This document shows, piece by piece, positions 1,732 to 35,761 of a stretch of DNA of 53,516 bases. Each line of letters opens with the position of its first letter. Positions within the stretch are counted from its first letter, which is position 1. A program made the position numbers and the translations under genes. The notes beneath the pieces are model-generated. The model had not been told where the DNA came from and did no database searches. It was given only the letters and a program-made list of their open reading frames with translations. Origin of the DNA: Plantactinospora alkalitolerans (GTDB lineage Bacteria > Actinomycetota > Actinomycetes > Mycobacteriales > Micromonosporaceae); assembly GCF_015690345.1 (NCBI RefSeq), contig NZ_JADPUN010000224.1:1-53516 (forward strand), given 5' to 3'.

Positions 1732-3369
1732 GTGACCGGGGCGCCGGCATCGATCGTCGACCTGCTCGGACGTGGGGTTGCGGGCTCCGGTCGCCTCGTC
1801 AGCGTGGCACCAGGGCGTGCGGACAGGATCCTGACCTTCGCCGACCTGGACGCAGCATCCGGCCTCGGTGCATCGGCGCTCGGAGCCGTAGGTGACCGAG
1901 CCCGGGCTGGTCGGAACGTCGTTCTCGCGTGCAACGACCCACTCGCCTTCGTCACCGCCTTCTTCAGCGCGGCGAAGAACGGTGACGTCCCGGTGCCCGG
2001 GCCGAGCAGGCCGCTGTCCAGCCAGGCCCACCTTCGGCGCCTGCTCGGCATCGTCGAAGCCTCCCGGGCGAGCATCGTGGTCACCGACGAGCCTTCCCCG
2101 ACGGAGTTGCGGGAGCGCCTGGAGGGGACCGGGGTCGTTGTCGTCCCGGCGGTCGACCTGAACCACGCCACCCGCCCGTACCGGACACCCCGGCCCAACG
2201 ACACCGCGTACGTGCAGTACACGTCAGGGTCGGTGGCGGCCCCGAAACCGATCATGATCCGGCAACGGCAGGCGCTCGCCCAGCTCGCCCAGGCTGCTGC
2301 GGCCTACGCGGAGGACCGGTCCAGCGTCAGCGTCAACTGGGTACCGCTGTACCACGACATGGGCCTGGTCACCAGCGTGCTTCGCCCGCTCTGGTCCGAC
2401 TACACCTCCGTCGTGCTGGACCCGATGGACTTCGTTCGCGATCCGGGGTACTGGCTGGCCGAGATGACCAGGTGGCGGGCCACTCACACATCGGCACCCG
2501 ACTTCGGTTACGCGCTCTGCGCGACGCGGGTCGCCGCTCCCGAGCGCTTCAATCTGACGTCGCTGCGGGTGGCGCGTAGCGCTGGCGAGATGGTTCGGGC
2601 GAGGACCATCGCGGCCTTCACGGAGGCGTTCCGCCCCTCTGGGTACGACCCGATCGCGTTCAAGCCCTCGTATGGCATGGCTGAGGCGACGTTGACCGTT
2701 ACCACGTGCCCCCGGGACGAACCGCCTCGTCTGGTGCGGATCTCCCGCCGGGCCTTCCGAGACGGAGTCGTCGGCGATCCGCAGGGGGAGGACGACGTCC
2801 TGGAATTCGTGTCGAGCGGGCGTCCTCTGGCCGGCACGACGGTGACCGTCGTCGCCCCCTCCGGCGAGGTCTTGCCGGAGGGGGCGATCGGCGAGGTCGT
2901 CGTCTCAGGACCGCAGCTGGTCTCCGACGACTTCGCCACTGGTGACCTGGGCTTCCTTGTGGACGGCGAACTCGTCCTGATCGGTCGTAGCCACGAACGG
3001 TTCCAGATACATGGTGAGAACTTCTACAGCGGCGAGATCGAGACGCTGGTCACGGAGCACGAGCCGAGGGTGCGAGGGGGACGCGTCGCGGCGTTCGTCG
3101 CGTCAACGGACGGTGCCGGGCCCGCGGGTCTCGTCCTTCTCGCCGAGCTGCGCCGGGAGTATTCGACGGCGCCCGCGGAGCAGGCCGGCGCGATCGCCAA
3201 GCACATCCGCCGGGTGCTCAGCCGGGAGTTCGGTCTGAGCGTCCAACACGTCGGCTTGTTTCCCCCGAAGTCGCTACCGGTCACCACGAGCGGCAAGCTC
3301 TGTCGCGACCGGTGTCGCCTGGAGTTCGAGCGGGCCGGCGACGGTGCCTTCGCTCCGGTGACCGGTTGA
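1732..3369 (+). CDS. Fatty acyl-AMP ligase-like enzyme (FAAL)
   Basis: 545 aa from GTG 1732 (GGGGTGG about 8 nt upstream). ANL-superfamily enzyme: YVQYTSGSVAAPK (A3, ~160-172), WVPLYHDMGLV (~202-212), YGMAEATL (A5, ~314), TGDLGFLVDGELVLIGR (A7, ~403) and a C-terminal TTSGK lysine (~522). The LYHDMGL and YGxAEATL wording is typical of fatty acyl-AMP ligases, which adenylate a fatty acid and pass it to an acyl carrier protein rather than to CoA. It is the only plus-strand gene at this end, convergent with fabH across a 10-bp gap. The two free carrier proteins (5845-6421) are likely acceptors; this pairing is inferred. Confidence 0.88.
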   Translation: MTGAPASIVDLLGRGVAGSGRLVSVAPGRADRILTFADLDAASGLGASALGAVGDRARAGRNVVLACNDPLAFVTAFFSAAKNGDVPVPGPSRPLSSQAHLRRLLGIVEASRASIVVTDEPSPTELRERLEGTGVVVVPAVDLNHATRPYRTPRPNDTAYVQYTSGSVAAPKPIMIRQRQALAQLAQAAAAYAEDRSSVSVNWVPLYHDMGLVTSVLRPLWSDYTSVVLDPMDFVRDPGYWLAEMTRWRATHTSAPDFGYALCATRVAAPERFNLTSLRVARSAGEMVRARTIAAFTEAFRPSGYDPIAFKPSYGMAEATLTVTTCPRDEPPRLVRISRRAFRDGVVGDPQGEDDVLEFVSSGRPLAGTTVTVVAPSGEVLPEGAIGEVVVSGPQLVSDDFATGDLGFLVDGELVLIGRSHERFQIHGENFYSGEIETLVTEHEPRVRGGRVAAFVASTDGAGPAGLVLLAELRREYSTAPAEQAGAIAKHIRRVLSREFGLSVQHVGLFPPKSLPVTTSGKLCRDRCRLEFERAGDGAFAPVTG

Positions 3370-3379
3370 CCGCGGTCGG

Positions 3380-4408
3380 CTAGGGCCGGAGGTGGTCCAG
3401 CTTCGGCCAGGTCAGCGCGGCTGACGCCCACGTGCTGCCGGCCCCGAACGAGGTCAGCAGCACCTTCTTGCCCGGTGCCAGCAGCCCGGCCTGCATCGCG
3501 TCGGCCAGGGCCAGCGGGATCGACGCGGCAGCGGTGTTGCCGACCCGGTCGAGGTTGACGTAGCAGCGGTTCTCGGGGAGGCCCAGATTGGTGGCGACGG
3601 CGCGGAGAATACGCAGATTCGCCTGATGGCCGACGAGCAGGTCCAGTTCCGCTGAGTCCCAGCCGACCGTTCGCAGGATGTCCGACGAGGAGGCGGTCAT
3701 CCGTCGTACGGCGTGCCGGAAGACCGCTCGGCCGTCCATGCGCAGGTAGTCCCGGTCGCCGTCCAGGGGAAGCGGATGACGGGATCCGCCGGCCGACTTG
3801 ATGATCAGGTCGGCCTGATTTCCGTTGCTGCCCAGGTCGAACGCCAGGACCTGACCGTCGTCGCCGAACGAACCCGCCCTCAGCACTACCGCGCCGGCGC
3901 CATCACCGAACAGCGGGGCGACGACCTGGTCCTGCGGGTTCACGAGCGTGGTGAAGGTGTCTGCCGCTATGAGCAGGACGCTCTCTGCCAGACCGGAAAC
4001 GATCATGGACGTGGACACGGACAGGCCGTAGACGAACCCGGAGCACACCGCGTTGACATCGAACGCCGGCACGTTGGGCAGGCCCAGTCGGGCGGCAACC
4101 GAGGGAGCGGTCGCCGGGCACGGAAAGTCTGGGGTGGTGGTGGCGAGGACCACCACGTCGACAGCCGGATGTCCGGCCATGTCGAGCGCTCGGCTCCCGG
4201 CCGACACCGCCAGATCCGAGGTCGCCGCGTCCGCGTCGTTGACGTGCCGGGCGGTGATGCCGGTCCGTGAAGTGATCCATTCGTCCGAGACGCCGAGCCG
4301 GCGCTCCAGGTCGGCGTTGGTGAGCCGGCCGGGCGGGACCCAACCTCCGATGCCCGCGAGCACCGCCGTTCGCGATGCCCGCCCTCCCCGCTGGGTGGTG
4401 AACTGCAT
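3380..4408 (-). CDS. Beta-ketoacyl-ACP synthase III (FabH-like)
   Basis: 342 aa, the normal KAS III length. The catalytic triad is intact: Cys122 in NAVCSGF, His261 in GHQAN and Asn291 in GNTAAAS. FGDGAGAVVL and the C-terminal SFGAGSTWASA are also family signatures. GGAGAG lies just before ATG 4408. FabH paralogues in clusters start or extend an acyl chain by condensing an acyl donor with malonyl-ACP, or act as acyl transferases/ester formers. It ends the minus-strand run and faces the FAAL gene, so both probably prepare the lipid part. Substrate cannot be read from sequence. Confidence 0.93.
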   Translation of the reverse strand: MQFTTQRGGRASRTAVLAGIGGWVPPGRLTNADLERRLGVSDEWITSRTGITARHVNDADAATSDLAVSAGSRALDMAGHPAVDVVVLATTTPDFPCPATAPSVAARLGLPNVPAFDVNAVCSGFVYGLSVSTSMIVSGLAESVLLIAADTFTTLVNPQDQVVAPLFGDGAGAVVLRAGSFGDDGQVLAFDLGSNGNQADLIIKSAGGSRHPLPLDGDRDYLRMDGRAVFRHAVRRMTASSSDILRTVGWDSAELDLLVGHQANLRILRAVATNLGLPENRCYVNLDRVGNTAAASIPLALADAMQAGLLAPGKKVLLTSFGAGSTWASAALTWPKLDHLRP

Positions 4409-4474: not shown

Positions 4475-5842
4475 TCACCCTTCGCCGAACGACTCACCGC
4501 ATGTCGGGTCGACGCCCGCCATGGCGACGAGCAGTTCCTCGAGCCGAAAGGCGAACGCCGCACTCTGCTGGCGGCTCAGATAGTGGGTGTCCACCCAGAA
4601 CGACAGTTTCGCGACCGGCCAGACCTCCCACACGTGCATATAGAAGGTCATCTGTTCGGCCTCGGCGGAGTCGCACCAGCCGAACTCGGACTGGCGCAGG
4701 AGCGCCGGATAGTCGGCGGGCTCGTGGGTGACCTTCTCGTAGGGCAGGGTCGGACGGTGGTAGTTGAAGGTACGGCCCAGTTCGGGAGCGGAGGACCGAC
4801 CGGAACTCACTTCCTCGATCAGCGCCGTCGCCGCTGTCGGGTCGAGTTGACCGTAACGCGCTGCGGCCAGCAAGGACGCGTGCGTACGGGCCAGGACCGT
4901 GGCATGGTCGCCGTGTAGATCCAGGTACAGGGGCACCGGCTGCGACAGGTGTCCCACCGTGGTTCGCAGCCGTGAGTGATTCCGATTCGTCACCACCACG
5001 AAGAGGCCGCTCTTGCGACCGCCGTCGTGCTCGGCCAGTGTGTGGGCGGCAGCGGTCAACAGCACCGACGAGGGCGCGACCCGGTACGTGGCCGCGACGG
5101 CTCGGGTGGCATGCGCCGTCGCGGCCGAGTTGAAGGCGGCATGCCAGAACCGCGGTGCCGTCGTCGATCGCGGCGGGGAGCGGTCCAGCGCCGGCATGGA
5201 CTCCAGTTGCCGGCGCCAGAAGGACAGGGCCCGCTGTCGGGCCTCGCGACCGCGTTCGCTGCGCTCGTGCCGGCCCTCGTCCAACGGTTGCCACCCCCCG
5301 TCCTCGTCATCGGCGTGCTCACCGCGAAGTTGTCGGGAAAGTTCGTCGTGGAGTACGTGCAGACTCCACCCGTCGACTGCGGGCAGCGACGTGACCAGGA
5401 CGAGGTGACCGGCTCCCGAGATCGTCCGTACGACCGCGGCGCGGACCTGAAGTTCCCGGTCACATCGGAACGGCCGCTCCCGCAGCCTCGCCGTGATCTC
5501 GCTGGTCATTACCGACAACTGGGTGTCCGAGACCAGCACGATTTCGACGTCGATCGAACCGGCGGGATGGGCGTACGCCCACAGCTGCGCGTCCCGGTCA
5601 CGCTCGTAGGTGGTCCGTAGCGCCTCGTGCCGGACCACCGTCACCCGCAGGGCCGCCAGTACCTCGTCGTCGCCGACGGTGGGAGGGATGTCGACGACCA
5701 GCGGCAGATTCAGATGCGGCCCGTAGCGGAACTCGAGGTCGGCTAGGACCTGCCAGGCAGCGAGTTGGCCGCTGGGGACCATGCCGTTCCTGGCCGACGC
5801 GCCCTGGAAGGTGAGCAGCCGCGCGTCACGGAGGGGGGACAC
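4475..5842 (-). CDS. Free-standing condensation-domain-like protein lacking HH of HHxxxDG
   Basis: 455 aa from GTG 5842; longer in-frame starts would run through the whole upstream carrier gene, so they were rejected. The fold signatures of an NRPS condensation domain are visible: VRHEALRTTY, VDGWSLHVLHDEL, LSFWRRQLE, VVVTNRNHSRLRTTVGHL. In the active-site motif the two histidines are replaced: residues 152-158 read SLPAVDG. The C-terminus (ARYGQLDP, FWVDTHYLS) closely resembles the second such protein (7498-8925), so the two are paralogues. With no catalytic His it may be structural, may use another residue, or may catalyse a different acyl transfer. The start is 3 bp from the carrier stop. 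Confidence 0.85.
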   Translation of the reverse strand: MSPLRDARLLTFQGASARNGMVPSGQLAAWQVLADLEFRYGPHLNLPLVVDIPPTVGDDEVLAALRVTVVRHEALRTTYERDRDAQLWAYAHPAGSIDVEIVLVSDTQLSVMTSEITARLRERPFRCDRELQVRAAVVRTISGAGHLVLVTSLPAVDGWSLHVLHDELSRQLRGEHADDEDGGWQPLDEGRHERSERGREARQRALSFWRRQLESMPALDRSPPRSTTAPRFWHAAFNSAATAHATRAVAATYRVAPSSVLLTAAAHTLAEHDGGRKSGLFVVVTNRNHSRLRTTVGHLSQPVPLYLDLHGDHATVLARTHASLLAAARYGQLDPTAATALIEEVSSGRSSAPELGRTFNYHRPTLPYEKVTHEPADYPALLRQSEFGWCDSAEAEQMTFYMHVWEVWPVAKLSFWVDTHYLSRQQSAAFAFRLEELLVAMAGVDPTCGESFGEG

Positions 5843-5844
5843 GA

Positions 5845-6111
5845 CTATTCGCCGCCTGACAGCGCCGGGGCCAGTTCCTGCACGAGTCCCCACAGACCTC
5901 CCGGGGTCTCGGTCGCCGGGCTGTTGAGCAGGTCGTCCGGCACGACGACCTCGAACTCGTCCTCCAGTTCCGTGAGGAGAGCCACGACCCCCAGCGAGTC
6001 GAGGCCAAGCTCCGTCAGCTCCGCGTCGGGCGAGAGCGGCGAGTCGGCGGGCAGGCAGAGGTGGCGCCGGACGAGAGCCTCGAAACTGACAGGCCAATGA
6101 GACTGGTTCAC
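5845..6111 (-). CDS. Acyl/peptidyl carrier protein 1
   Basis: 88 aa, GTG start with GGAGCAGAA upstream. The phosphopantetheine site is LTELGLDSLGVVALLTELED, with Ser39 as the attachment residue. Length and helix pattern fit a discrete ACP/PCP. It is coupled to the condensation-like gene downstream. Probable role: holds the acyl chain from the FAAL/FabH pair or an amino acid loaded by one of the cluster ligases. Confidence 0.9.
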   Translation of the reverse strand: MNQSHWPVSFEALVRRHLCLPADSPLSPDAELTELGLDSLGVVALLTELEDEFEVVVPDDLLNSPATETPGGLWGLVQELAPALSGGE

Positions 6112-6187: not shown

Positions 6188-6421
6188 TCATGCCGGGGAC
6201 ACCGAACTCAGCCGGTGCGCGAGGTCTCTGAGGGTCGACGCTTCGAACACGTCGTCCAATCCGACCGGGACGCCGGTCTCGTCTGCCAACCGCTCGGCGA
6301 ACAGGACCGCCGTGAGGGAGTCCGCGCCCAGGTCGAACAGGTCGTCCGTGGGTGCGACAGCGGTGTGGAAGACCGCCGCCGCGACGGTCAGAACCGTCTG
6401 CAGGTGATCTTTCTCGGGCAC
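6188..6421 (-). CDS. Acyl/peptidyl carrier protein 2
   Basis: 77 aa from GTG 6421, with AGGAG 9-10 nt upstream. The motif DLFDLGADSLTAVLFAERL carries Ser35 for phosphopantetheine. It is more acidic and PCP-like than carrier 1, so the two probably carry different substrates. A 76-bp gap separates them. Its neighbour upstream is the transglutaminase-like gene. Confidence 0.9.
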   Translation of the reverse strand: MPEKDHLQTVLTVAAAVFHTAVAPTDDLFDLGADSLTAVLFAERLADETGVPVGLDDVFEASTLRDLAHRLSSVSPA

Positions 6422-6502
6422 GTGTTCAACTCCTACGTGTCTCGTAGCCGGTGACCGGGGTCGGCCCCCGTTGCTCGGCAGTGGTCCGCCGTCGATGCGG
6501 CA

Positions 6503-7489
6503 TCAGTCACCTACCTGTCGCGTCGGAAAGGAGAGGCCCAGGCCGGCCGGCGGCCGCTCAACCAGCGGAGTGTTGCGGGCACAGATCCGGAGCGTGCCGG
6601 CGGTGAGGCTGCCGGTCGGCGACCACTCACCCGGCCGGGCGATCCCCCACGGCACCAGACTGGCCAGCAGCAGCGGGTCGAACGGGACCCACCGGTCGTG
6701 CAACTCCAGCTCCAACCAGGTGTGTGGTACCGAGTAGGGAGTTGCCAGCAGCAGGCCGAACGACGTACGAGCCGGGACACCGGCACGTTGTGCCGCCGCG
6801 CACAGGTACCGCGCGGCTAACTCGCAGTCAGCGAGCCCCGCCCGGTCGACGAAGGCGAGATCCTTCCAGAGGGTCGGCGGAAGCAGGTGGTGGCGTACGC
6901 CGGCCATCCGGGCGAAGACCGCGCGCAGTGCGTCGGGAACCTCGACCGGCGAGTGGTGGACCCGCTGCCGTAGCAGCGCCGTCGGCCCGTGCGGAGTTCT
7001 CCCCACATTCTCGGCCAGCGACCGAACCCGGGGGTGGAACTCGTGGTCCCCCCGGCAGCGTTCACCTGCACAGGCGCACCGTGTCACCATCTTGACCTCG
7101 TACGTGGCCGGGCTTCCGGAGGCGCAGCGTTCCAGCGACCTGCGCCACCGGCGCATGGCGAGGTAGTCCGGAGACGGCAGGCGGAGTGCCACCGTTGCGC
7201 TGATCAGGTCGAGCCGCTCGAAGAGCAACTCCGTGCCGTGGCGGCGGTGCGGGAGGCCGAGCCCGGCGAGGAAGGCCAGCAGATCGGGGGTCAGCGCGTA
7301 ACGCAGCGCACCGGCGGCGGGAAACGAGAAGGTGCGGAGCTGGTCGGGAATCCGACGAGCCGCATCGACCAGGTCGGCCGCGGCGGCCTGGAAGGCGGGA
7401 CCACCGGAACCGTCCAGTGGTGGAGGCCGGTCGGGAGTCATGTTCGGGTCGGTGCGGGCGTCCAGTCCGGTCACGCCGCCGGTGCCCAT
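6503..7489 (-). CDS. Transglutaminase-like superfamily protein
   Basis: 328 aa from ATG 7489 (GAGG spaced 7 nt). The C-terminal third is a transglutaminase-like Cys-His-Asp fold: Cys222 in LADCELAARYL, His256 in SVPHTWLELEL and Asp271 in RWVPFDPLLL. The N-terminal ~200 residues are not recognisable; CACAGERC at 138-145 followed by HEFH could bind metal. Known precedent: AdmF of andrimid biosynthesis, a transglutaminase homologue, forms an amide between carrier-bound acyl and amino substrates. Lying between carriers and condensation-like genes, this protein is a good candidate for the real amide-forming enzyme here (inference). A protease role is the alternative. Confidence 0.78.
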   Translation of the reverse strand: MGTGGVTGLDARTDPNMTPDRPPPLDGSGGPAFQAAAADLVDAARRIPDQLRTFSFPAAGALRYALTPDLLAFLAGLGLPHRRHGTELLFERLDLISATVALRLPSPDYLAMRRWRRSLERCASGSPATYEVKMVTRCACAGERCRGDHEFHPRVRSLAENVGRTPHGPTALLRQRVHHSPVEVPDALRAVFARMAGVRHHLLPPTLWKDLAFVDRAGLADCELAARYLCAAAQRAGVPARTSFGLLLATPYSVPHTWLELELHDRWVPFDPLLLASLVPWGIARPGEWSPTGSLTAGTLRICARNTPLVERPPAGLGLSFPTRQVGD

Positions 7490-7497
7490 GGGGGACC

Positions 7498-8925
7498 TCA
7501 CCAGATGCCCTCCGCCCGTTCGACGACCGTCCCGCTGACCCCGGTGACGGCGCTCAGGTGGCACATCGGCACGTCCCCCGCCGTCACCTCGATGAGAAGC
7601 CGTTCGGCACCGAGGAGCACCTCGGCCACATCGGCCCGGGACAGGTAAGCGGTATCGACCCAGACCAGCAGGTCCACCTCGGTCAGGAAGCGCTGCGCCA
7701 GCACGAACATCCCGGGGCTCTCGTCGTCCGCGGCGGGCGTCCAGCGGAGCACCGTTCCGACGGCGAGCCCTCGCAGTGCGATCGCGTCGACGGTTGGGGT
7801 GGCGGGTGTCGGACCGGGGCTCGCGGCGAAGTCGAAGACCACCGGTAGGGTCCCCGAGGCACCGACGCAGGGGTCGTCTCCGTGGGTGAGCGCGGCCACA
7901 GCTGCCGGGTCGGGCTGGCCGTACCGGGCCGCGCGGAGCATCCGCTGGGCCGTCGTCGACACCACCTTTCCGAACGTCTCTTGGGACACGTCCAGGTACA
8001 CCGGGGCGATCTGGGCGTACCGGCCAAGAGATCGCCGCGTCTGCGCCAGGTGCCGGTTGTCGGTGAGCAGGGAGACACCGATCCCGGGCTGGCCGAGCCG
8101 GAGCCCGATCATCACGGCCAGCCCGCCGAGCAGGACGGTCTGAATCGGCACGCCCCACTTCACGGCGACCTGTTGGGCCGCCTGCGCCAAGGCTGAGGAG
8201 GTGAAGTGAACTGCCCAGCGCCGCGGTGCCTCGACGACCGGGCGGTAGCGCGGTGGCGGCGTCGCCCGTACGTGGTCGAGCTGCTCACGCCAGAACGCCA
8301 GGCTGGCCGCGGCAACGGACTTGGATTGCTCGCCCGACTCGTAGGCGACCTGGTCGAGGGGCTGCCACTCCGGTGTCACCAGGTCCTCGTGGGGAACGTC
8401 GGCGTCGTTGAGCCGAGTGTGCAGCCACCGCCAGAGCTTGGTGAGGCTCCAGACGTCGGCGGCGATGTTGGACAGCCCGACCACCAGCACCGTCGGGCGT
8501 CCGTCCGACATGATCAGACCGAAGCAGATCGGCGGCGCCGAACGCAGGTCAAACTGGGTCGCCGCCAGTTCCTGCGCCAGTGCCGCGGCGGCCTGCTTGG
8601 GCGGCTGCCCGTCCGTCTGGCGCAGCCGCAGGTCGAAGGCCCCCTCGCCGAGCACCTGCTGCTCGGGCTCTCCGATCCCGTCGAGCCGGTACGTCGTCCG
8701 CAGCGTCTCGAAGCGGGTGACCGCGTCGGTGGTCACCCCGATGACCTGGTCCACCGTGTATTCCGAGCCGATGTCGACCTGCAGGGTGAGGGTCGTGCGA
8801 TTCTCGTGTGGGGCGAGATCCCGGATGATGTCCCAGCACCAGCGTTGCCCCCGGGACAACGGTCCGTCTCGGACCGGAAGTCCTGCGAAACGGATGAGGA
8901 GAGACGTTCGGAGCTGGCCTGTCAT
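7498..8925 (-). CDS. Second condensation-domain-like protein with degenerate active site
   Basis: 475 aa from ATG 8925, preceded by AAAGGACC; ATG 8952 is possible but has no ribosome site. The condensation-domain scaffold includes LSRGQRWCWDIIRDL, RFETLRTTYRLD, ADVWSLTKLW, LAFWREQLD, VSLLTDNRHLAQTRRSLG. The catalytic motif at 152-158 is SNIAADV instead of HHxxxDG, so both histidines and the glycine are lost while the aspartate stays. It shares ARYGQPDP and VWVDTAYLS with the 4475-5842 protein. It ends 8 bp before the transglutaminase-like gene. Confidence 0.84.
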   Translation of the reverse strand: MTGQLRTSLLIRFAGLPVRDGPLSRGQRWCWDIIRDLAPHENRTTLTLQVDIGSEYTVDQVIGVTTDAVTRFETLRTTYRLDGIGEPEQQVLGEGAFDLRLRQTDGQPPKQAAAALAQELAATQFDLRSAPPICFGLIMSDGRPTVLVVGLSNIAADVWSLTKLWRWLHTRLNDADVPHEDLVTPEWQPLDQVAYESGEQSKSVAAASLAFWREQLDHVRATPPPRYRPVVEAPRRWAVHFTSSALAQAAQQVAVKWGVPIQTVLLGGLAVMIGLRLGQPGIGVSLLTDNRHLAQTRRSLGRYAQIAPVYLDVSQETFGKVVSTTAQRMLRAARYGQPDPAAVAALTHGDDPCVGASGTLPVVFDFAASPGPTPATPTVDAIALRGLAVGTVLRWTPAADDESPGMFVLAQRFLTEVDLLVWVDTAYLSRADVAEVLLGAERLLIEVTAGDVPMCHLSAVTGVSGTVVERAEGIW

Positions 8926-8952
8926 GTGCAGGTCCTTTCGCGCGTGCGTCAT

Positions 8953-9753
8953 TCAGCTGCCCGCGCTCTCGTAGCGACGTAGCCCGCGGCGGAACACCCA
9001 GATGGCGATGAACACGCAGGCCACCGCGACTGCGGGCGTGAGGAGGCCGATCGTGGCGTCGACACCATCGGCCAGGTAACTGACCGGGTAGTAGCTGGTG
9101 AAGGCGAAAGGCACGACCGTCGTCAGCACCACGCGAAGGCCGACCGGATAGATGCCCAGGGGATACCTGGCCAGCTCACCGACCTGATGCATCGCATAGG
9201 CGACCACCGGGTTGCGTCCCTGCAACCAGAAGGACGCTGCGTTGGTCGCCAGATTCATCGCGAGCTTCACCACGACGGCGCTGCCCGCCAGCAGGACGAG
9301 GATCAACCCCTGCAGCGGCGACCACTGGAGAGGGGCGTAGCACAGCGCCACGACGATCATCGCCGTGCCCAGTACGAGGTTGCCGAGTCCGTTGAAACCG
9401 ACCGCTGAACTCATCAGTTGGAGGGCCACCGGATAGGGCCGGACGAGCAGGTAGTCCAACTCGCCGGAGTTCACCATCGCGGCCAGGCGCCAGGTGCCCT
9501 CGAACAGCAACGAACCAATACCCTCGGCGACGGTCACCATCGCGTACATCAGCGCGACCAGCCAGAAGGACCAACCGTCAAGGTGTGGCACCCGGGCGAA
9601 GAGGGCCGCCAGGAAGATCAGTCCCACCCCCTGGCTGAGGACTGCCGCGAAGATCATGACGAGGAAGTCGGCCTTGTACTGGGCCGCGGCGCGCAGCTGC
9701 GCACCGAGCAGTCGGACGTACAGGCGGGCGGTCCGCATCCACTCTCCGGTCAT
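8953..9753 (-). CDS. ABC-2 type exporter permease
   Basis: 266 aa with six hydrophobic segments. It resembles the COG3694 ABC-2 permeases: MRTARLYVRLLGAQLRAAAQ at the N-terminus, WSFWLVALMYAMVTVAEGI, and GELDYLLVRPYPVALQL in the intracellular loop. It pairs with the next permease and the ATPase in a translationally linked block, so the three likely form one exporter of the cluster product. Its stop abuts the condensation-like start. Confidence 0.9.
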   Translation of the reverse strand: MTGEWMRTARLYVRLLGAQLRAAAQYKADFLVMIFAAVLSQGVGLIFLAALFARVPHLDGWSFWLVALMYAMVTVAEGIGSLLFEGTWRLAAMVNSGELDYLLVRPYPVALQLMSSAVGFNGLGNLVLGTAMIVVALCYAPLQWSPLQGLILVLLAGSAVVVKLAMNLATNAASFWLQGRNPVVAYAMHQVGELARYPLGIYPVGLRVVLTTVVPFAFTSYYPVSYLADGVDATIGLLTPAVAVACVFIAIWVFRRGLRRYESAGS

Positions 9754-9754
9754 G

Positions 9755-10540
9755 TCAACCTCCGTGCACCGTGAGCTGACGGACCGCGGTGGCCCACGTC
9801 GCCCTGGCCAGGAGCCAGAGCAGTAGGGCCCAGACCACCTGCAACAGCAGGCCGCGCACGGCGGCGAGCCCGTGCAGGTCCCCGGCCAGGATCAGTGCCG
9901 GGGTCGAGGTGATACCCGCGAAGGGCAGGTACTCGGCCACGGTCCCGAACCACGATGGCAGGAACGACAGCGGGATCAGTGCACCGGAAAGCAGGTTGAC
10001 CACCGCGACGCGGGCCCAGTTGATCCCCAGGTAATTCTGTGTCCAGAAGCAGGCGAGGCCGGTGATGTAGACGACCAGGAACTTCAGCGGTACGACCGCT
10101 GCCAGGCTCAGCACGAACAGCAGTAGGTGGACGGGGTCGGGCCAGAAGATCGTCCCGAGCAGCGTGATCACCCCGCACCACCCGAGCGCCGCCACCAGCA
10201 GCTCGATCCAGACGCCGCCGACGGTCTCGGCCAGTCGGGCCTTCTGGTAGTCGATAGGTCGGGTCAGGTCCACCGCCACCATTCCGCTCTGGATCCGGGC
10301 CGCCATCCCGAAGTCCGTGTACAGCGAGACGAGCGCGCCGCAGCTGAAGGCCACCAGCAGGTAGGACTTCATCTGTGGCCAGGTCAGACCGTTGACCTGG
10401 CCGGCACCGATGACCGCGTGCCAGATGGCCAGCAGTGCCAGCAGCTGGAAGATCAGCCCGAACATGCTGAACACGAAGGTCAGCCGGTAGGTCAGCACAC
10501 TCCGGGCGGAGGCGCGCGCGAGCGCGAGGTACGGTCTCAT
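9755..10540 (-). CDS. ABC-2 type exporter permease
   Basis: 261 aa, six predicted membrane segments, COG4587-like: YLALARASARSVLTYRLTF, SYLLVAFSCGALVSLYTDFG, DLTRPIDYQKARLAETVGG. ATG 10540 overlaps the ATPase stop by 4 bp (ATGA) and its own stop is 1 bp from the next gene. Such COG4586/4587/3694 triads are heterodimeric exporters often found in antibiotic clusters. Confidence 0.9.
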   Translation of the reverse strand: MRPYLALARASARSVLTYRLTFVFSMFGLIFQLLALLAIWHAVIGAGQVNGLTWPQMKSYLLVAFSCGALVSLYTDFGMAARIQSGMVAVDLTRPIDYQKARLAETVGGVWIELLVAALGWCGVITLLGTIFWPDPVHLLLFVLSLAAVVPLKFLVVYITGLACFWTQNYLGINWARVAVVNLLSGALIPLSFLPSWFGTVAEYLPFAGITSTPALILAGDLHGLAAVRGLLLQVVWALLLWLLARATWATAVRQLTVHGG

Positions 10541-12833: not shown

Positions 12834-12835
12834 CG

Positions 12836-14316: not shown

Positions 14317-14463
14317 TGTTTCTCCCCGTCTGCTGGCCGTCGCCGGCTCCGCCGTTGTGCCGGGCACCCGGCCTCTGTCTGGCCGTGCCCGCTTCTATCC
14401 GTTGCGTCCGAGGCTCGATCGCCCGCCGCGGGTGGACGCGGCCGGGTGCGGCGCGGATGCCGC

Positions 14464-19089: not shown

Positions 19090-19121
19090 CGTATTCCCCT
19101 CCCCGTAGTCCCCATCGCGAG

Positions 19122-21751: not shown

Positions 21752-21770
21752 CGTGCGTCCCTTCCGCGCC

Positions 21771-23353: not shown

Positions 23354-23354
23354 G

Positions 23355-24293: not shown

Positions 24294-24314
24294 CCCGAAC
24301 GCTCCTGGATCGGG

Positions 24315-25373: not shown

Positions 25374-25411
25374 TCGTCCCCCATGTACTTGTTTATTGGA
25401 ACTGACGGACG

Positions 25412-25859: not shown

Positions 25860-26468
25860 TCAGTCCAGGCCGGGGTTCGGCAGCCGGGTCACCACGTGCA
25901 TGCTCCAACGCCGGTGCCCCGCAGAACCGATCAGGGCGCCCTGATCACCGGCGAGCCCGGCCAACCGCGTCGCGAGGTCCGAGATCAGTGAATGCCACCC
26001 GGGGTGCCGCTCGGCCGCTGGTCGGTACAGCGAGACCACCAGTTCGCCAGCCGGAGCGACCAGTGCGAGCGCCTCGGCGAGAGCCCGATCCGGATCATCC
26101 AGGTAGTACAGCACCTCGCTGAGCACCACGACGGCGAACTGGCCGCGCACGGGTAGTTGTGCCAGGTTGGCGCAGACGAACCGCCGGTTCGGTCCGCCCG
26201 TCGGCGGTAGGGCGCTGTGCGCCCAGTCGACGCCGACGTAACGTCCGGTGAACCCTGCCGTTTCCAGATGGCGTGCCAGGAGCCCTTCGCCGCAGCCCAG
26301 ATCCAGGACCTCCGTCGCGCCGGCGGTCAGGATGCGGGCCACGATCGCCTGGTAGCGAGCCGCCTCGTCGGGCTCACCGAGGTAGCGCCAGCGCCCCCGG
26401 CGGTACTCCTCGTTCCACTCCCGTCGGCCGACGGTCGGTACGCCACCGGCCGGGGAACCACCACTCAT
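25860..26468 (-). CDS. SAM-dependent methyltransferase
   Basis: 202 aa; ATG 26468 overlaps the aminotransferase stop by 4 bp. N-terminal RREWNEEYRRGRWRYLGEPD, motif I VLDLGCGEGLLARHL, YVGVDWAHSAL, FAVVVLSEVLYYLDDPDRAL. The wording matches the SAM methyltransferases that often act on nucleotide sugars or amino-sugar moieties (NodS-like). Last gene before the hairpin at 25718. Confidence 0.88.
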   Translation of the reverse strand: MSGGSPAGGVPTVGRREWNEEYRRGRWRYLGEPDEAARYQAIVARILTAGATEVLDLGCGEGLLARHLETAGFTGRYVGVDWAHSALPPTGGPNRRFVCANLAQLPVRGQFAVVVLSEVLYYLDDPDRALAEALALVAPAGELVVSLYRPAAERHPGWHSLISDLATRLAGLAGDQGALIGSAGHRRWSMHVVTRLPNPGLD

Positions 26469-28525
26469 CGGAGCACCGCCGGAGCGACCGGTGCGGGGGT
26501 CCCGACGGCGATCTCGGACAGCACCCCATCGGCGGCGGCCAGGGCGAAGTCGATCTGCTCCTCCTGGTGTGCGGCACAGACGAAGTTCACGTCGCGGCGC
26601 ATCAGCACCCCCCGCCGGGCCATGCCGGCGAGGAATGCCTCGGCGGTCCGGGCATGCTCGGTGGGATCGGCGGAGAACCGCAGGCAGGGCATCGGATCGT
26701 AGCCGAATACGAAGTTCGGCATACCTCGCCTCCGCGCCGCCGCGTTCAAGCCGGTCCGCAACCGGCGGCCCAGGCGGGCGATCCGGCCGTAGTAGTCGTC
26801 CGTCGTGTACTCCTGCAGCGTCGCCTTCATCACCTCGAGTGAGAGAGCCTCGCCCGCGAACGTGCTGGACACCCGCTGCGTGGCGAAGGCCGACATGATG
26901 TGACGCGGACCGGCGACCGCCGCCAGGGGCATTCCGGCGGCCAGGCCCTTGGAGAAGCAGAGAAGGTCCGCGGCCACCCCGCGCAGTTGACCGAGCCCGC
27001 CCGGAGCGAGTCGGAATCCGGTGACCACCTCGTCCAGGATCAGTAGCGTGCCGGTCCGGTCGCACAGCTGCCGAACTCGTTGTAGTAGCGCAGCGTCCAG
27101 TTGCCGGTGGTAGGGGGTGGACACCATGACGGCCGCAAGCTGGTCGCCTCGCCGGTCGAGGTCGGCGCAGAACTGTTCCTCCGCGTCGGGGGAATCCAGG
27201 TGGGTCCGGCGGGTCAGGGCGGCGACGGACGGCGGTATCCCCGGTGCCGATCCCATCAGCTGATCGTGCCAACCGTGATAACCGACGAGCAGCACCGCAT
27301 CACGGCCGGTCAGTGACCGGGCCAGCCGGATCGCTGCGGAGCACGCCTCCGCTCCGGTCTTCAGGAAACGCACCATGTCGACGCCGGGCACCTGGGCCGT
27401 GAACGACTCGGCCGCACTGACCTCCGCCGGAGTCGGCAACGACAGCAGGACGCCACGGCCGGCGCGTTCACGCAGCGTGTTCGAGACCGCGGGATGGTTG
27501 TGTCCGAGCGTCGCAGCCCCCAGCGCGCAGACGAAATCGACGTACGCCTGGCCGTCCACGTCCCAGACGACCGCGCCGTCACCCCGTTCGAGGTACGTCG
27601 GATAGGCGCCGGGCGCGAAGTTCTCCGGCCGTTTGTGATATGTGTGCGTCATGCCCGGCGTGACGGCCATGGCGCGGTCGGCGAGCTGCTGCGACCGGGC
27701 CAGGCGCAGCGGGCCGCCGGGCTGGGGTCGCACCGCCGGCACAGCGTGGGCGGTACGTTGCTCGGGCGATATCGCGCGGTGGAGCCGGCGGGCGCGCATC
27801 CATTCCCGCCCGATGTCGTGGGCTACGATGTCCCGCGTCCACAGCACATTGTGCCGCTCGTACGAGCCCTCCGCCACGATTTGGTCGCGGACCCGTTCGT
27901 CCGGACATCGGGCCGGGTCGGTGCCCGCGAGCGCCCGAGCCACCGTGGCGGACCACCGTGATCGTCGGTGTACGTGAGGGGCGAGCGGCATGAAGTACGC
28001 CGCCCAACTGGCCGGCTGCAACCGCAGCAACTCGCAGCGGGCGCCCCGCACCGGTGTGGCTTCCTCGGGAGAGTCGAAGGTCCCACCCCGCGCGGTGTGC
28101 GAGTTGCCGAAGACGATCTGGGTGCTGTCCTGTTCGTACAGGTCGGCGACGAGACCGTCGAGGTCCAGTGGTGCCCGAAACTCCCAGTCGTCCTCCAGGT
28201 GCACGCCGATTGGCGCGGTGGCCGAGGCGAGCAGCACCGACAACGCGCCGGACAACCCGACGGGTCGGGCAAAGCGCTCGACACGGCTCGCCGCCACCTG
28301 CGGATAGCGCTCCGGCAGCGTCCGTACGAATTCGCACGTCGCGGCGATCTCGCCCTCGTCCACCCCGTAGGCCGGGTCCACCGTGAGAAACACGTGGAAC
28401 GAGCCCGTGAAGGAGACGTTACGGAAGAAACTTGTATAGGTGCGAACCAGGGTGTCCCGGCCCACGGAAGTGGTGGTGAGGTCGATCCGATCGGTACGGG
28501 ATGACGACTCGGGTGCATCCGGCAC
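26465..28525 (-). CDS. Fusion: glycosyltransferase-like domain plus class III PLP aminotransferase
   Basis: 686 aa from GTG 28525 with a consensus AGGAGG about 7 nt upstream. Residues ~1-300 form a GT-A-like domain with FHVFLTVDPAYG, an acidic metal site LEDDWEF (Glu111-Asp113) and SWAAYFMPL. Residues ~335-686 are a class III aminotransferase related to glutamate-1-semialdehyde aminomutase: NFAPGAYPTYLERGDGAVVW, ATLGHNHPAV, LLILDEVVTGFRLAPGG and PLP lysine Lys526 in CFSKGLAAGMPLA. The fusion is unusual. It could aminate a keto sugar, for example one made by the BtrN-like enzyme, and transfer it. Confidence 0.86.
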   Translation of the reverse strand: MPDAPESSSRTDRIDLTTTSVGRDTLVRTYTSFFRNVSFTGSFHVFLTVDPAYGVDEGEIAATCEFVRTLPERYPQVAASRVERFARPVGLSGALSVLLASATAPIGVHLEDDWEFRAPLDLDGLVADLYEQDSTQIVFGNSHTARGGTFDSPEEATPVRGARCELLRLQPASWAAYFMPLAPHVHRRSRWSATVARALAGTDPARCPDERVRDQIVAEGSYERHNVLWTRDIVAHDIGREWMRARRLHRAISPEQRTAHAVPAVRPQPGGPLRLARSQQLADRAMAVTPGMTHTYHKRPENFAPGAYPTYLERGDGAVVWDVDGQAYVDFVCALGAATLGHNHPAVSNTLRERAGRGVLLSLPTPAEVSAAESFTAQVPGVDMVRFLKTGAEACSAAIRLARSLTGRDAVLLVGYHGWHDQLMGSAPGIPPSVAALTRRTHLDSPDAEEQFCADLDRRGDQLAAVMVSTPYHRQLDAALLQRVRQLCDRTGTLLILDEVVTGFRLAPGGLGQLRGVAADLLCFSKGLAAGMPLAAVAGPRHIMSAFATQRVSSTFAGEALSLEVMKATLQEYTTDDYYGRIARLGRRLRTGLNAAARRRGMPNFVFGYDPMPCLRFSADPTEHARTAEAFLAGMARRGVLMRRDVNFVCAAHQEEQIDFALAAADGVLSEIAVGTPAPVAPAVLR

Positions 28526-28629
28526 TAGTGAACCCTCCTGACGTGCGGATCTGCTGGCAAGCGGTTGAGAGAGCGCGGGGCCGGACATCACCCGGAACCG
28601 GCGCGGAGGTGCTGACCGTCCGGTACGGC

Positions 28630-31600
28630 TCAGGACATCGCTGGAATGCTGCCGGCTGCCTCCAGACGGGCTCTGAGCGATGCGAGAACCTCCTGGACGC
28701 CGTGCGCGTTGCAGCCGTGGAGGGCCGAGATGCCGCGCTGCCAACTCGCCCGTGCCGAGTCCCCCGCCCCCTGCTCCGTCTGCATGTCGCCGTAGACGAG
28801 GAGGGTCCGAGCGACCCAGAGGGGAACGTCGACCTCACGGAAGAGACGCAGCGCTCGCTTGAACCAGTCCGCCGCCCGGGGCGGATCGGCGTTCTCCTGG
28901 TGCAACGTCCCGAGGAGGTAGCAGACCCGGGCGGTGGTGAGGCGGTCCCCGGTCACCTCGATCAGAGCGTACGCACGGCTCATCAGCGACATCGCCTCGG
29001 CATACCGGCCCCGCCGTGCCAACACCGCGCTGCGGCCCACCAGCGCGTGCACCTCACCGATCCGGTCGCCCACCGGGCGGGTCAGGTTCAGCACGCGTTG
29101 GTAGTGGATGTCCGCGGAGTCGAGGTCACCCTGCTCCCGGCACAGATCGCCCAGCCGGTGGCTCACCTGTGCCAACACCCGGCGGTGACCGGCCTCCTCA
29201 GCCAGGCTCCGGGCGACGCCGAGGCAGTGTTGCGCCTGCGCCGACTCGTCCCGGTCGAGGTGAATCTGGGCCATGCCGCTGAGGACGTGCGCCTCACCGA
29301 TCTGGTCGCCGACCGCTCGCAGTACGACCAGCGAGTGCTCGTACTGGTCCTGCGCGGTGTTCAGGTCGCCGCGGACCCGGTTGACGAAGGCCAGGTTGCG
29401 GATGGCCAGCGCCTCGCCGTGTGCGTGGCCGAGACCGTGGAACAGCGACACGGCGGTGCCGAGGTGCTCGACAGCCTCCTCGAGGTCGCACTCGACGATG
29501 CTCAGCGCGCCGAGCGAGTAGAGCATCGCGGCCTGACCGAGCTGGTTGCCGGTGCGGCGCACTGCGGCCAGTGCCGTCTCGTGCGTCGTCCGCCAGTCGC
29601 CCAGGTAACCGTGCGCTTCGTACAGGGTCACCGCCAGCAGGGCAAGGTTCCAACAGTGGTCGTCGCTGCCGACCTCGGCAGCATGGCGGACCTCGGCGAG
29701 GATGGATTGCCGCTCCAGTTCGAACCAGCTGAGTGGGTTGACCACGAACCTGTCGGTGACCGCCGCCGGCATCGCCCATCTCGGCGCCGGCCCCTGGATC
29801 ATGGTTCCGTAACCCCCGTACTCGCGGTGGTAGGCGTTCTCCGCGAGCCAGAGGCGGGCGGCGAAGACCCGATGGAGGGCGTCGAGTTGGGCGTCCTGCG
29901 GTTCGGCGGCATGTTTCTCACGGGCGAAGGTCCTGATGATGTCGTGCATCCGGAACCGGGTCTGCACCGTCTGGCCGTACGTGACGGGCTCCGCCTCCAG
30001 CAGCCGGCTGTCGGCGAGGTTCTCCAACAACTCCTCGGCCTCCTCGATCGGCACGTCCAGCAACGGAGCGGCGACCCAGCTGGGGAAATCGGCGGTACGC
30101 AGCGTGCTGAGCAGCTGGAACAGCCGCTTCGCGCGGTCGGTCAGCGCGTCGTACGTGACCGCGATGCTGGTACGCAGCCGCAGGCCGCCGTGCTGGAGTT
30201 CGTCGAGCCGGTGCTCCTCAAGAGCCAGTCGGTGGTTGAGCTGCTCGATTCGCCAGTGCGGCCGGGCGGCTAGTTTGGCTCCGGCGATCCGGATGGCGAG
30301 CGGTAGCTCCTCACATAGCGCCGCCAGTCGCCGCACCTGCGACGGTTCGGCCGCCACCCGGTGGTAACCCACTATGGCGGCGAGCAGGTCGGTGGCGTCC
30401 TGCTGTGAGAGCGACCCCAGCTCGTAGTGTCGTGCGCCGGTGAGGCCGGTCAGCCGCAGCCGGCTGGTCACCAGGACCGCACAACTCGCGCTGCCCGGCA
30501 GCAGTGGAATGACCTGCTGCTCGCTGGTGGCACCGTCGAGCAGGATAAGGATGCGGCGGCCGGCGATGCGGTTGCGGTAGACCTCGGCGCGCTCGTCCTG
30601 CCCGTCCGGAATGGCCGAGCCCACCACGCCGAGCGCTCGTAGAAAGCGCTCCAACAGGTCAGCCGGGGTCACGGGGTTCATCCCCGCGCCGTCCAGGTTG
30701 ACGTAGAGCTGGCCGTCGGTGTAGGCGTCGCAGATTCGGTGGGCGACGTGGATTGCGAGGCTGCTCTTCCCGGTGCCCGCCCGTCCGGATAGTGCGATGA
30801 CGGTCCCCGGGCCGCCCCGCATCGTTTCGGTGAGCGTGCTGACGAGCCGCCCATGGCCGGTGAAGTCGGCGATGTCCGTGGGCAACAGGTGTGGCAGGTC
30901 CACCCGACGGTTCGAGACGTTCATGCGTTCGGAGTCGGATCCGGCCGTGGTCTGGAGGATCTCCGGGGCGGTCGGGACGACGTTGACCACCTCGCCGGGC
31001 GGGTCGCCGGAGAGGATGACGGACTCCAGCCGGCGCAGCTCCTCGCCGGGCTCGATGCCCAGCTCCTCAATGAACATCCGGCGGGTCGCCCGGTATGTCT
31101 CGAGCGCCTCCGCCTTGCGACCGCCATGGTAGAGCGACAGCATGAGGTGCCCGCGTAGCCGCTCCCGCAGCGGGTGTTCGGCCACCAGCCCCATCAGTTC
31201 GCCGATCAGACTGCGGTACTGACCGAGGGCGAGCTTGAGGTCGATGCTGTCCTCCAGGGTCGCCATGCGGCACTCGTCGAGCCGGGCGGCGGACGTCTGG
31301 ATCACCGGGCTGTTGATGCCGGCGAGCGGGGAACCGCGCCACAGGGACAGCGCGGTGTTGTAGGCGGCGGCCGCCTCGTCGAGTCGCTGCTCCGCCACGG
31401 CTCTGCGGGCCCGTTCCTCGCAGCGGTTGAATTCGTGCAGGTCGAACTGGGCATTGCCCAGGTACAGGGCATAACCGGGTGGCCGGGTGACGATCGAAGT
31501 GGTCACGCCCGTCGCAGCGAGAATCCGTCGCAGACTCGAGATGCATATCTGGATCTGTCCTCGCGCGGTCGCCGGCGGCCTGTCGTGCCACACCGCGTCG

Positions 31601-31737
31601 ATGAGCCGGTCGACGGCGACGACCCGCTCGGCCTCCAGCAGCAACATCGCGAGCACGATCTGTTGCCGCGCCGCGATCGCCGGCGACCCGCCCACCGACC
31701 CCCGGATCTCCAGGGGCCCCAGAATGGCCAACTGCAT
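28630..31737 (-). CDS. AfsR/SARP-type transcriptional regulator (SARP-NB-ARC-TPR)
   Basis: 1035 aa from ATG 31737 (GGGGAG about 9 nt upstream; ATG 31746 is too close). Order: winged-helix DNA-binding domain (1-95, LRRILAATGVTTSIVTRPPG), bacterial transcriptional activation domain (100-245), NB-ARC ATPase with P-loop GRAGTGKSS (~319-327) and Walker B RILILLDGA, then a long TPR array (~680-1030). This is the architecture of large pathway activators of the AfsR type. It is probably the cluster activator; the P450 lies upstream on the same strand, 138 bp away. Confidence 0.94.
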   Translation of the reverse strand: MQLAILGPLEIRGSVGGSPAIAARQQIVLAMLLLEAERVVAVDRLIDAVWHDRPPATARGQIQICISSLRRILAATGVTTSIVTRPPGYALYLGNAQFDLHEFNRCEERARRAVAEQRLDEAAAAYNTALSLWRGSPLAGINSPVIQTSAARLDECRMATLEDSIDLKLALGQYRSLIGELMGLVAEHPLRERLRGHLMLSLYHGGRKAEALETYRATRRMFIEELGIEPGEELRRLESVILSGDPPGEVVNVVPTAPEILQTTAGSDSERMNVSNRRVDLPHLLPTDIADFTGHGRLVSTLTETMRGGPGTVIALSGRAGTGKSSLAIHVAHRICDAYTDGQLYVNLDGAGMNPVTPADLLERFLRALGVVGSAIPDGQDERAEVYRNRIAGRRILILLDGATSEQQVIPLLPGSASCAVLVTSRLRLTGLTGARHYELGSLSQQDATDLLAAIVGYHRVAAEPSQVRRLAALCEELPLAIRIAGAKLAARPHWRIEQLNHRLALEEHRLDELQHGGLRLRTSIAVTYDALTDRAKRLFQLLSTLRTADFPSWVAAPLLDVPIEEAEELLENLADSRLLEAEPVTYGQTVQTRFRMHDIIRTFAREKHAAEPQDAQLDALHRVFAARLWLAENAYHREYGGYGTMIQGPAPRWAMPAAVTDRFVVNPLSWFELERQSILAEVRHAAEVGSDDHCWNLALLAVTLYEAHGYLGDWRTTHETALAAVRRTGNQLGQAAMLYSLGALSIVECDLEEAVEHLGTAVSLFHGLGHAHGEALAIRNLAFVNRVRGDLNTAQDQYEHSLVVLRAVGDQIGEAHVLSGMAQIHLDRDESAQAQHCLGVARSLAEEAGHRRVLAQVSHRLGDLCREQGDLDSADIHYQRVLNLTRPVGDRIGEVHALVGRSAVLARRGRYAEAMSLMSRAYALIEVTGDRLTTARVCYLLGTLHQENADPPRAADWFKRALRLFREVDVPLWVARTLLVYGDMQTEQGAGDSARASWQRGISALHGCNAHGVQEVLASLRARLEAAGSIPAMS

Positions 31738-31875
31738 CTTGCTCATCTCCCCGTTTGACTTTCCGTGGCTGCGCACTGGCCGGCCCACCCTGGCCAGCCG
31801 CCTTCGCGGTGCACGACCAGCGCGCTGCCGAACGACGGGCGGCCAGGCATGCCGCCCCCGTGGTCGGCAGGCGGC

Positions 31876-34203: not shown

Positions 34204-34277
34204 TCGATGTCAGGCGGTCGCCCAAGAGCGCTGCTCCACACATCCACGCGTTCACCACGGGGGAAGGACGACAGGCC

Positions 34278-35075: not shown

Positions 35076-35083
35076 CGGGCGCG

Positions 35084-35761
35084 CTACGGGATCGACCAGG
35101 GGACGGTGTCGGCGGTCAGGATGCGTAGACCGGTGACGCTCCAGATCGCCACCGAGTGGCTGACCACGAGGACCGGTCCTCGACCGACCTGTCGGCGCAG
35201 CGCCGCGTCGACCCGGGTGCGCAGGTCGACGACGTCCTCGAAGTTAGGTCCGTCGTGCTCGTCCGGTCGGACACCGGTCCACATCGCATACAACGCGCGG
35301 TCGACGACCTCCATCGGATGAGATCGTCCGCTGACATCGACACACCACTCGCGCAGATCGATCTCGACCTCGAGCGTGAGTCCCAGTTCGACCGCCACCA
35401 GATGGGCGGACTGCATGGCCCGGGTCAGTGGCGAGCTGACCACCCGCCGGATGCCGAGTCCGGATATGGCCCTGGCCTGCCGCTCCACCTCGTCGATACC
35501 GTGGGAGGTCAGTGGTGCCAGGTCGGTGGCATCGGCTCGGGAACCGGCCGGCGTCGTCGGCCACGCCGTCTCGCCGTGCCGCATCAGCAGCGCTCCGGAT
35601 CCCGGCTGCCATGCCGGCGGCGCCCGCCGGGCCACCGGCGGTGCCGGAACGGATTCGGCGGTCTGCCGGACGCCCTCGGGAGCCAGCGACGGTATCGCGC
35701 CCGGGGATCCGGCAGTACGGCCGCCAACCGTGGCAGCACCTCGCCCGTCGTGAAGGCTCAT
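35084..35761 (-). CDS. Histidine phosphatase superfamily protein
   Basis: About 225 aa from ATG 35761; in-frame starts exist up to 35869 and the true one is uncertain. The RHG motif is LLMRHGETAW, followed by SSPLTRAMQSAHLVAVEL and the second catalytic His in VLVVSHSVAIWSV. The N-terminal ~60 residues are low-complexity Ala/Pro/Gly. It may remove a phosphate late in the pathway, for example one added by the neighbouring kinase as protection; this is inference. Marks the probable right edge of the cluster. Confidence 0.82.
   Translation of the reverse strand: MSLHDGRGAATVGGRTAGSPGAIPSLAPEGVRQTAESVPAPPVARRAPPAWQPGSGALLMRHGETAWPTTPAGSRADATDLAPLTSHGIDEVERQARAISGLGIRRVVSSPLTRAMQSAHLVAVELGLTLEVEIDLREWCVDVSGRSHPMEVVDRALYAMWTGVRPDEHDGPNFEDVVDLRTRVDAALRRQVGRGPVLVVSHSVAIWSVTGLRILTADTVPWSIP

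Follow-up and report, generated by a model that had tools for sequence, protein, structure and literature searches.

We report that a gene cluster of the actinomycete Plantactinospora alkalitolerans contains, as judged by homology, the core of the agrocin 84 biosynthetic locus, with a methionyl-tRNA synthetase (MetRS) in the place of that locus's leucyl-tRNA synthetase (LeuRS). The stretch analyzed (the window: 53,516 nucleotides, contig NZ_JADPUN010000224.1, here C186; G+C 0.65-0.71) belongs to a genome of 9.2 Mb in 441 contigs. The open reading frames (ORFs) of the window were scanned against Pfam, and most of an earlier gene list made from the sequence alone (the original prediction) was matched. 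A minus-strand gene run extends from 3380 to 33060 of the window, and the shared core lies at 15971-25373. We read the right half of the cluster as a probable agrocin-84-type pathway in which MetRS, instead of LeuRS, is the self-immunity synthetase.

The agrocin 84 locus (agn) lies on plasmid pAgK84 of Rhizobium rhizogenes K84 (CP000632.1). It has AgnA, AgnC1, a small ORF, AgnC3, AgnC5, AgnC6 and a full class I synthetase in common with the window; because this synthetase is the LeuRS AgnB2 in pAgK84 and a MetRS in the window, we file the window as a variant and not as an agrocin 84 cluster. According to PMC5059758, AgnB2 is an experimentally established self-immunity LeuRS, and a 5' N-acyl phosphoramidate is present in the agrocin 84 toxin TM84; the agrocin 84 product is reported to contain a methyl pentanamide, not leucine (PMC4392301, PMC6429109). 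None of 32 window query proteins matched agnC2, agnC4, agnC7, agnD1 or agnD3 in 29 kb of pAgK84 at E≤1e-3. Conversely, only the window has a BtrN-like enzyme, an aminotransferase, a YdjC protein, a ThiG protein, carriers, condensation proteins, an ABC exporter and a SARP regulator. The original prediction recognized no described system with this combination of genes; agrocin 84 is a described relative. Among the titles and abstracts listed in our literature searches, none concerned an AgnA-type cluster outside Agrobacterium.

The first element of the core is an asparaginyl-tRNA synthetase (AsnRS)-like catalytic core at 24315-25373 (minus strand; start placed by eye at Met 25373, longest ORF to 25481). 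It matches PF00152 (E 5e-31), while no anticodon domain was matched. When it was used as a tblastn query against a plasmid collection (22 records, 20 listed), the listed matches included agnA, annotated as 'Agrocin84-synthetase', with 43% identity over 332 aa. According to PMC4392301, AgnA is a truncated AsnRS homologue with a biosynthetic role. Motif 2 (FR.E) and motif 3 (GxGxER) of the AgnA-type protein look intact by eye, so that it likely uses ATP. The archaeal asparagine synthetase A, an AsnRS paralogue, resembles it in having the core without the anticodon domain (PDB 3p8t, E 4e-16), but AgnA is closer, and the protein scores under the NCBIfam cut-offs for asparagine synthetase A. In a search of 300 genomes of the family, 249 gave a match at E≤1e-3, but only nine places in eight genomes (its own included) matched at ≥48% identity over ≥300 residues; genome G243 holds a 60-residue piece with 70% identity. 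We take the remaining listed matches, at 26-34% identity, for true synthetases.

The second element is a prolyl-tRNA synthetase (ProRS)-like protein at 19122-20345 (minus strand), which has no Pfam match above the cut-off. A profile of four homologues matches the ProRS of the PDB (E 5e-13), and all 50 Foldseek matches listed for its AlphaFold2 model (pLDDT 85.1) are ProRS, the best with E 3.5e-26. It is homologous to AgnC1 (tblastn E 1e-17; hhalign probability 99.9, E 1.4e-32). With the motifs assigned by eye, Arg120 and Arg131 are kept, and Lys230 is invariant in eight homologues at the position of the motif-3 arginine; for this reason the proteins probably still function, with a changed substrate, instead of being inactive. 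Overlapping this gene (20338 versus 20345) is one for a 143-aa protein at 20338-20769 (minus strand), which overlaps its other neighbor as well. The 143-aa protein has no Pfam or NCBIfam match, and its model (pLDDT 91.9, pTM 0.86) has a class II synthetase-like fold: all 50 Foldseek matches listed are class II catalytic domains, but weak ones (TM-scores on the query 0.37-0.53), the best being HisRS 4rdx (E 9.7e-5, TM-score on the query 0.51, rmsd 5.9). The family has a counterpart in pAgK84 between agnB2 and agnC1 (L101 18287-18709; E 5e-13, computed in an ORF set from eight loci), which overlaps agnC1, is absent from the gene table of CP000632.1 and is a hypothetical protein in NC_006277.2. 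The pAgK84 counterparts of the ProRS-like and 143-aa proteins are both annotated only as hypothetical proteins. We infer that the two proteins form a pair. The original prediction was thus right about three synthetase-like genes (MetRS, ProRS-like and AsnRS-like) but missed this fourth, class II-like fold.

The ProRS-like gene is rare: it was found in 4 of 354 genomes of the family at E≤1e-40, in 14 of 396 genomes of the phylum at E≤1e-10 (full length in its own genome only), in 1 of 371 genomes of an archaeal group, and at five loci in a pattern-based scan of 84,980 species. These counts are lower bounds, because the last scan did not list three family genomes that hold the gene. A tblastn search of the plasmid collection gave no match at 1e-8 even though AgnC1 is present in it, and therefore this query misses distant members.

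The remaining core genes are those of predicted immunity and tailoring. The S66 peptidase at 20753-21751 is closest to MccF structures (E 2.5e-58), as the original prediction had proposed, and is 40% identical to AgnC5; the catalytic Ser, Glu and His and the W-[ST]-D-E loop align by eye to 3gjz, and we presume that the aligned positions have the roles known from MccF. Methyltransferase MT1 (21771-22508) is 36% identical to AgnC3 over 242 aa, and the PhyH-type dioxygenase (23355-24293) is 28% identical to AgnC6 over 279 aa (E 1e-28). Methyltransferase MT2 (22505-23353) lies close to the AgnA-type gene also in G058, G124, G114, L041 and L042. Between the MetRS and the ProRS-like gene lie a YdjC-type deacetylase (17534-18385), kept in G058 and G114, and a BtrN-like radical SAM/SPASM enzyme (18352-19086) with homologues of 75% identity in G114 and 74% in L042, pointing to an aminocyclitol or aminosugar part. 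All of these genes are on the minus strand.

To evaluate whether these genes belong together, window proteins were compared by tblastn with the neighborhoods of relatives. Nine loci hold the ProRS-like gene (the window, G058, G114, G189 and L041-L045). The AsnRS-like, 143-aa, ProRS-like and MccF genes occur together in eight of the nine, L045 holding a ProRS-like fragment only, and a MetRS is linked in six: the window, G058, G114, G189, L041 and L042. In G189 the AgnA-type, small-protein, ProRS-like, MetRS and MccF genes stand in tandem within 5.3 kb, with the ProRS-like and MetRS genes overlapping by one base. The AsnRS-like protein of L042 is diverged (30%) and, by eye, nearer to that of the archaeal L044. 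L044 encodes a synthetase in which a LeuRS editing domain was matched; another copy of it (35% identity) lies elsewhere in the genome. The recurrence of the set in related loci indicates that it is not a chance neighborhood. The synthetase genes are therefore not scattered, non-conserved neighbors, and the view that this is a biosynthetic cluster with synthetase paralogues outside translation and an MccF homologue is supported.

The MetRS of the window (15971-17533, minus strand) is a full enzyme, with matches to PF09334 (E 1e-94) and Anticodon_3. The linked MetRSs keep both class I signatures, together with the tryptophan and histidine regions that we assign to the methionine pocket. A phylogenetic tree shows that they are not one clade: that of L041 groups with Streptomyces copies (82% identity to the copy in G696, which is the Streptomyces genome containing L043), and the rest group with the window type. 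Thus a dedicated, cluster-tied MetRS clade is rejected, and MetRS must have been linked at least twice. In four genomes the linked MetRS is an extra copy: the window's own genome has three MetRSs (on C64, C219 and C186), that of L041 two, G058 two and G189 three. The linked MetRS of G058 is 91% identical to the C219 copy of the window's genome. In contrast, the linked MetRS of G114 is the sole PF09334 match of its genome at E≤1e-40, and the genome of L042 likewise has no other MetRS that we found; a 603-aa MetRS type is carried by each of the five other congeners of G114 that were searched, G034 aside. An enzyme that is the only MetRS of its genome has to support translation, which is what one would expect of a resistant target. 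The situation in G114 is compatible with a resistant target copy having displaced the housekeeping enzyme, and also with a cassette having inserted next to a MetRS already present.

Several observations weigh against a MetRS-based agrocin-like pathway. L043 (15.3 kb) and L045 (a fragment) have neither MetRS nor LeuRS in the sequence at hand. The linked MetRSs have no common resistance signature: their KMSKS loop reads KLSKT in the window, KISKT in G189, KLSKS in G114, G058 and L042, and KMSKS in L041. In AgnB2 a KQSKS loop has been implicated in resistance together with other positions, the Q change alone having raised no sensitivity (PMC5059758). The MetRS of G114 shares 97% identity with the G034 enzyme, near which no cassette lies, and may simply be its lineage's own MetRS; G034 holds this linked-type MetRS plus one further PF09334 match. 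Window-type MetRSs without a cassette are common: 37 of 81 genomes of the family matched at E≤1e-40, against the 4 of 354 with the ProRS-like gene, which shows that this MetRS occurs without the cassette, and no cassette gene was found in the 11.6-20 kb retrieved around the MetRS of five of the closest, G034, G025, G072, G052 and G018. The pAgK84 stretch gave no match to any of the left-half proteins (ThiG-like, HAD, GT2, AMP ligase, KAS III-like, carriers, condensation and transglutaminase-like). Finally, no partner synthetase was found, by annotation or with Leu-, Ala-, Met- and Pro-type queries only, at the AgnA-type loci of Pantoea, Bradyrhizobium, Streptomyces NBC_00829, S. changanensis, G124, G045, G172 and G062 or at a second locus of G114.

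How, then, should the MetRS be interpreted? The comparison of G114 with G034 raises the question of whether it is a bystander, a chromosomal gene without a role in the pathway, next to which the cassette has inserted repeatedly. The flanks of these two genomes are conserved on both sides, and between them G114 has ∼22.6 kb (L028 8860 to L029 11473) directly 3' of the MetRS and ∼2.1 kb 5' of it. This arrangement and the polyphyly of the linked MetRSs favor a bystander, but such a gene would not readily account for linkage in six of nine loci by MetRSs of at least two separate groups, for the embedding of MetRS in the gene run of G189, or for the LeuRS or AlaRS at other AgnA-type loci; moreover, the agrocin 84 precedent gives the enzyme a role. 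We therefore regard the bystander explanation as quite improbable. A biosynthetic MetRS, which would activate methionine or use Met-tRNA to place a methionyl group on the product (with a resistance role also possible), is somewhat easier to accept, although still unlikely. Its precedents are SbzA, an IleRS copy of the SB-203208 cluster that attaches Ile, taken from Ile-tRNA, to a sulfonamide (PMC6331615), and the AlaRS-like AcmF of ascamycin (PMC12945691). As in the window, a synthetase paralogue lies in each of these clusters, whose products are a synthetase inhibitor or an aminoacyl nucleoside, but SbzA and AcmF transfer from aminoacyl-tRNA, and the parts of these reports available to us mention no AgnA-type or ProRS-like partner. 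The retained class I signatures and pocket regions, and the position of the G189 MetRS between the ProRS-like and MccF genes, would suit a biosynthetic enzyme. It is at odds with the linked MetRS being the only one found in two genomes, and with agrocin 84, in which the synthetase is the immunity enzyme (PMC5059758) and the product has a methyl pentanamide in place of leucine.

We give least credence to the model of the original prediction, in which synthetase-like proteins load amino acids onto the two carriers or an aminosugar. The carriers, two AMP-binding proteins, the BtrN-like enzyme and the aminotransferase are indeed present. However, when the window carriers were used as tblastn queries, neither the 29 kb of pAgK84 nor the archaeal locus, both of which hold the core, gave a match (a diverged small carrier could escape this search), and the class I synthetase of agrocin 84 is an immunity copy (PMC5059758). 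The AMP-binding proteins, at 14464-15834 (minus strand, beside MetRS; PF00501, E 6e-25) and 1732-3369 (plus strand; E 7e-43), are available for carrier loading; both are free-standing adenylation proteins, which corrects the earlier statement that no adenylation module is present. An aminosugar or aminocyclitol part may instead be attached by enzymes other than synthetases, as the BtrN-like enzyme, class III aminotransferase and YdjC protein are present. Kinship with MshC or amino acid:[carrier protein] ligases, which the original prediction had named as precedents, did not hold up either: among ten scanned proteins only MetRS matched the MshC model, with 28.6 bits against a cut-off of 485.1, and the AsnRS-like protein is of the AgnA type (no such ligase was compared directly). 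Hydrazine synthetase, a cupin-MetRS protein, was also rejected, as there is no cupin among the scanned window ORFs and the MetRS keeps its anticodon domain. Microcin C7 is a ribosomal peptide made with the ThiF-like MccB; unlike that system, the scanned window ORFs include no ThiF-like protein. The likeness lies in MccF immunity, and the microcin C7 product is described as an adenylate-mimicking synthetase inhibitor (PMC7916415).

Under the preferred agrocin-84-type interpretation, the cluster may produce an agrocin-like antibiotic directed against methionine charging; the product itself, its delivery part, its MetRS target and each of the reactions are inferred. The AgnA-type protein would use ATP to activate an acid or amide and would cooperate with the ProRS-like/143-aa pair in joining a methionine-like amide to a nucleoside 5'-phosphate, yielding a stable mimic of methionyl-adenylate. 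The methyltransferases and the PhyH enzyme would shape the side chain or the nucleoside, and the aminosugar-type enzymes and the left half would attach and export a delivery part, in Trojan-horse style. In the producer, the cluster MetRS would provide drug-insensitive charging of tRNA-Met, and MccF would hydrolyze toxin that escapes.

It is instructive to compare the window with AgnA-type loci elsewhere. In the archaeal metagenome-assembled genome (MAG) Dive96_bin10.467 (L044:2424-11185), the AgnA-type gene is accompanied by genes for a methyltransferase (47% identical to the gene after agnA), an amidohydrolase, MccF, a second LeuRS, the small protein and an AgnC1-type protein. The amidohydrolase belongs to the same Pfam family as AgnC4 (Amidohydro_2), but as a close AgnC4 homologue it is rejected, given a weak BLAST match (E 2e-4). 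A HIT-like protein, identified by eye, lies beside MccF in this locus (6362-6784); a strict scan for the HIT triad motif gave one unconvincing match (in L030) and did not pick up the archaeal protein. HIT hydrolases are reported to give microcin C resistance (PMC7157772). A Xenorhabdus bovienii plasmid carries AgnA-type, methyltransferase, MccF and LeuRS genes (the last 42% identical to AgnB2) together with a tRNA-synt_2b-type class II protein. A Peribacillus plasmid (L104) has AgnA-type, methyltransferase and MccF genes with a full alanyl-tRNA synthetase (AlaRS) and a shorter AlaRS-like protein, and an Exiguobacterium plasmid (L107) has the same set but no MccF in the stretch seen. Thus the candidate target synthetases beside AgnA-type genes are LeuRS in Agrobacterium, Xenorhabdus and the archaeon, AlaRS in Peribacillus and Exiguobacterium, and MetRS in the window and five relatives. 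By its own description, the plasmid collection has an incomplete gene table.

Three further plasmids show other arrangements. That of Streptomyces NBC_01707 (L102:8555-30477) has AgnA-type, methyltransferase and MccF genes and a class II tRNA-synt_2b-type protein, with two condensation proteins, a P450, an adenylation protein and a SARP, and no full class I synthetase is listed. FAD and molybdopterin oxidoreductase subunits are also encoded there, and the class II protein looks like ProRS, but its membership in the ProRS-like family of the window is not supported (hhalign probability 16%; Pfam tRNA-synt_2b). A lead for this locus is a phosmidosine-like product, presumably a prolyl phosphoramidate of 8-oxoadenosine. 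Phosmidosines are named among phosphoramidate nucleotides in PMC6429109. On a Pantoea agglomerans plasmid (L103:11413-13008) a protein annotated as a GNAT acetyltransferase is apparently an AgnA-type/GNAT fusion, which to us is reminiscent of MccE-type immunity. A Bradyrhizobium barranii plasmid (L109:10895-14680) carries an S66 peptidase, a diverged AgnA-type protein (33%), a HAD protein and a methyltransferase beside nodU.

From these loci we tentatively propose, with rather less than even confidence, that AgnA and a second class II partner form a re-targetable machine for adenylate-mimicking antibiotics, in which the adjoining full synthetase names the target. On this view, the product of the window would be a natural nucleotide antibiotic directed at MetRS and that of the archaeal MAG an archaeal agrocin-like one, both made by the class II hetero-pair of the ProRS-like and 143-aa proteins.

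The left half of the cluster may serve the same product as the agrocin-like core. It comprises, on the minus strand unless noted, a KAS III-like protein (3380-4408), two condensation-like proteins (4475-5848 and 7498-8952; PF00668), two free carriers (5845-6111 and 6188-6421; PF00550), a transglutaminase-like protein (6503-7501; PF01841, E 1.5e-7) and an ABC exporter (8953-11712: membrane proteins 8953-9753 and 9755-10540, ATPase 10537-11712), and the Pfam matches of the carriers, transglutaminase-like and condensation-like proteins bear out the original prediction. Consecutive at 11571-14367 are genes for a GT2-type glycosyltransferase (11571-13178), a HAD hydrolase (12836-13768; both longest ORFs with uncertain starts) and a ThiG-like protein (13549-14367; PF05690). 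BexX, a ThiG-like enzyme, reportedly makes a 2-thiosugar in BE-7585A. Homologues in relatives are patchy: the adenylation protein at 14464-15834 has matches of 45% in G189 and 28% in G114, the plus-strand AMP ligase at 1732-3369 one of 34% in G189, and the condensation proteins have weak matches in G189, G045, G172 and G062. The ABC trio has a match in G114 outside its cassette (L027); as a part of that cassette it was rejected, being located beyond the flank common with G034.

Upstream of the AgnA-type gene, also on the minus strand, follow methyltransferase MT3 (25860-26471), a protein with a C-terminal class III aminotransferase whose N-terminal part is glycosyltransferase-like by eye only (26465-28744), a SARP/BTAD-type regulator (28630-31788), a cytochrome P450 (31876-33060) and a histidine phosphatase family protein (35084-35869), a homologue of which adjoins MT1 in G058 and G114. 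To the right of the cluster are integrase-core (rve) transposases at 35934-37004 and 47433-48656 and a large protein (41581-44571) with GH43, laminin-G and Ig-like domains.

In the excerpts of the literature available to us, descriptions of agrocin 84 are limited to Agrobacterium and Rhizobium, while the core recurs here in actinomycetes and in an archaeal MAG. If our interpretation is true, the target of an antibiotic would be readable from a genome, and the ProRS-like protein with its miniature class II partner would be the candidate assembly enzyme. The cluster would also point to a natural inhibitor of MetRS, an enzyme for which synthetic inhibitors have been described (PMC7916415).

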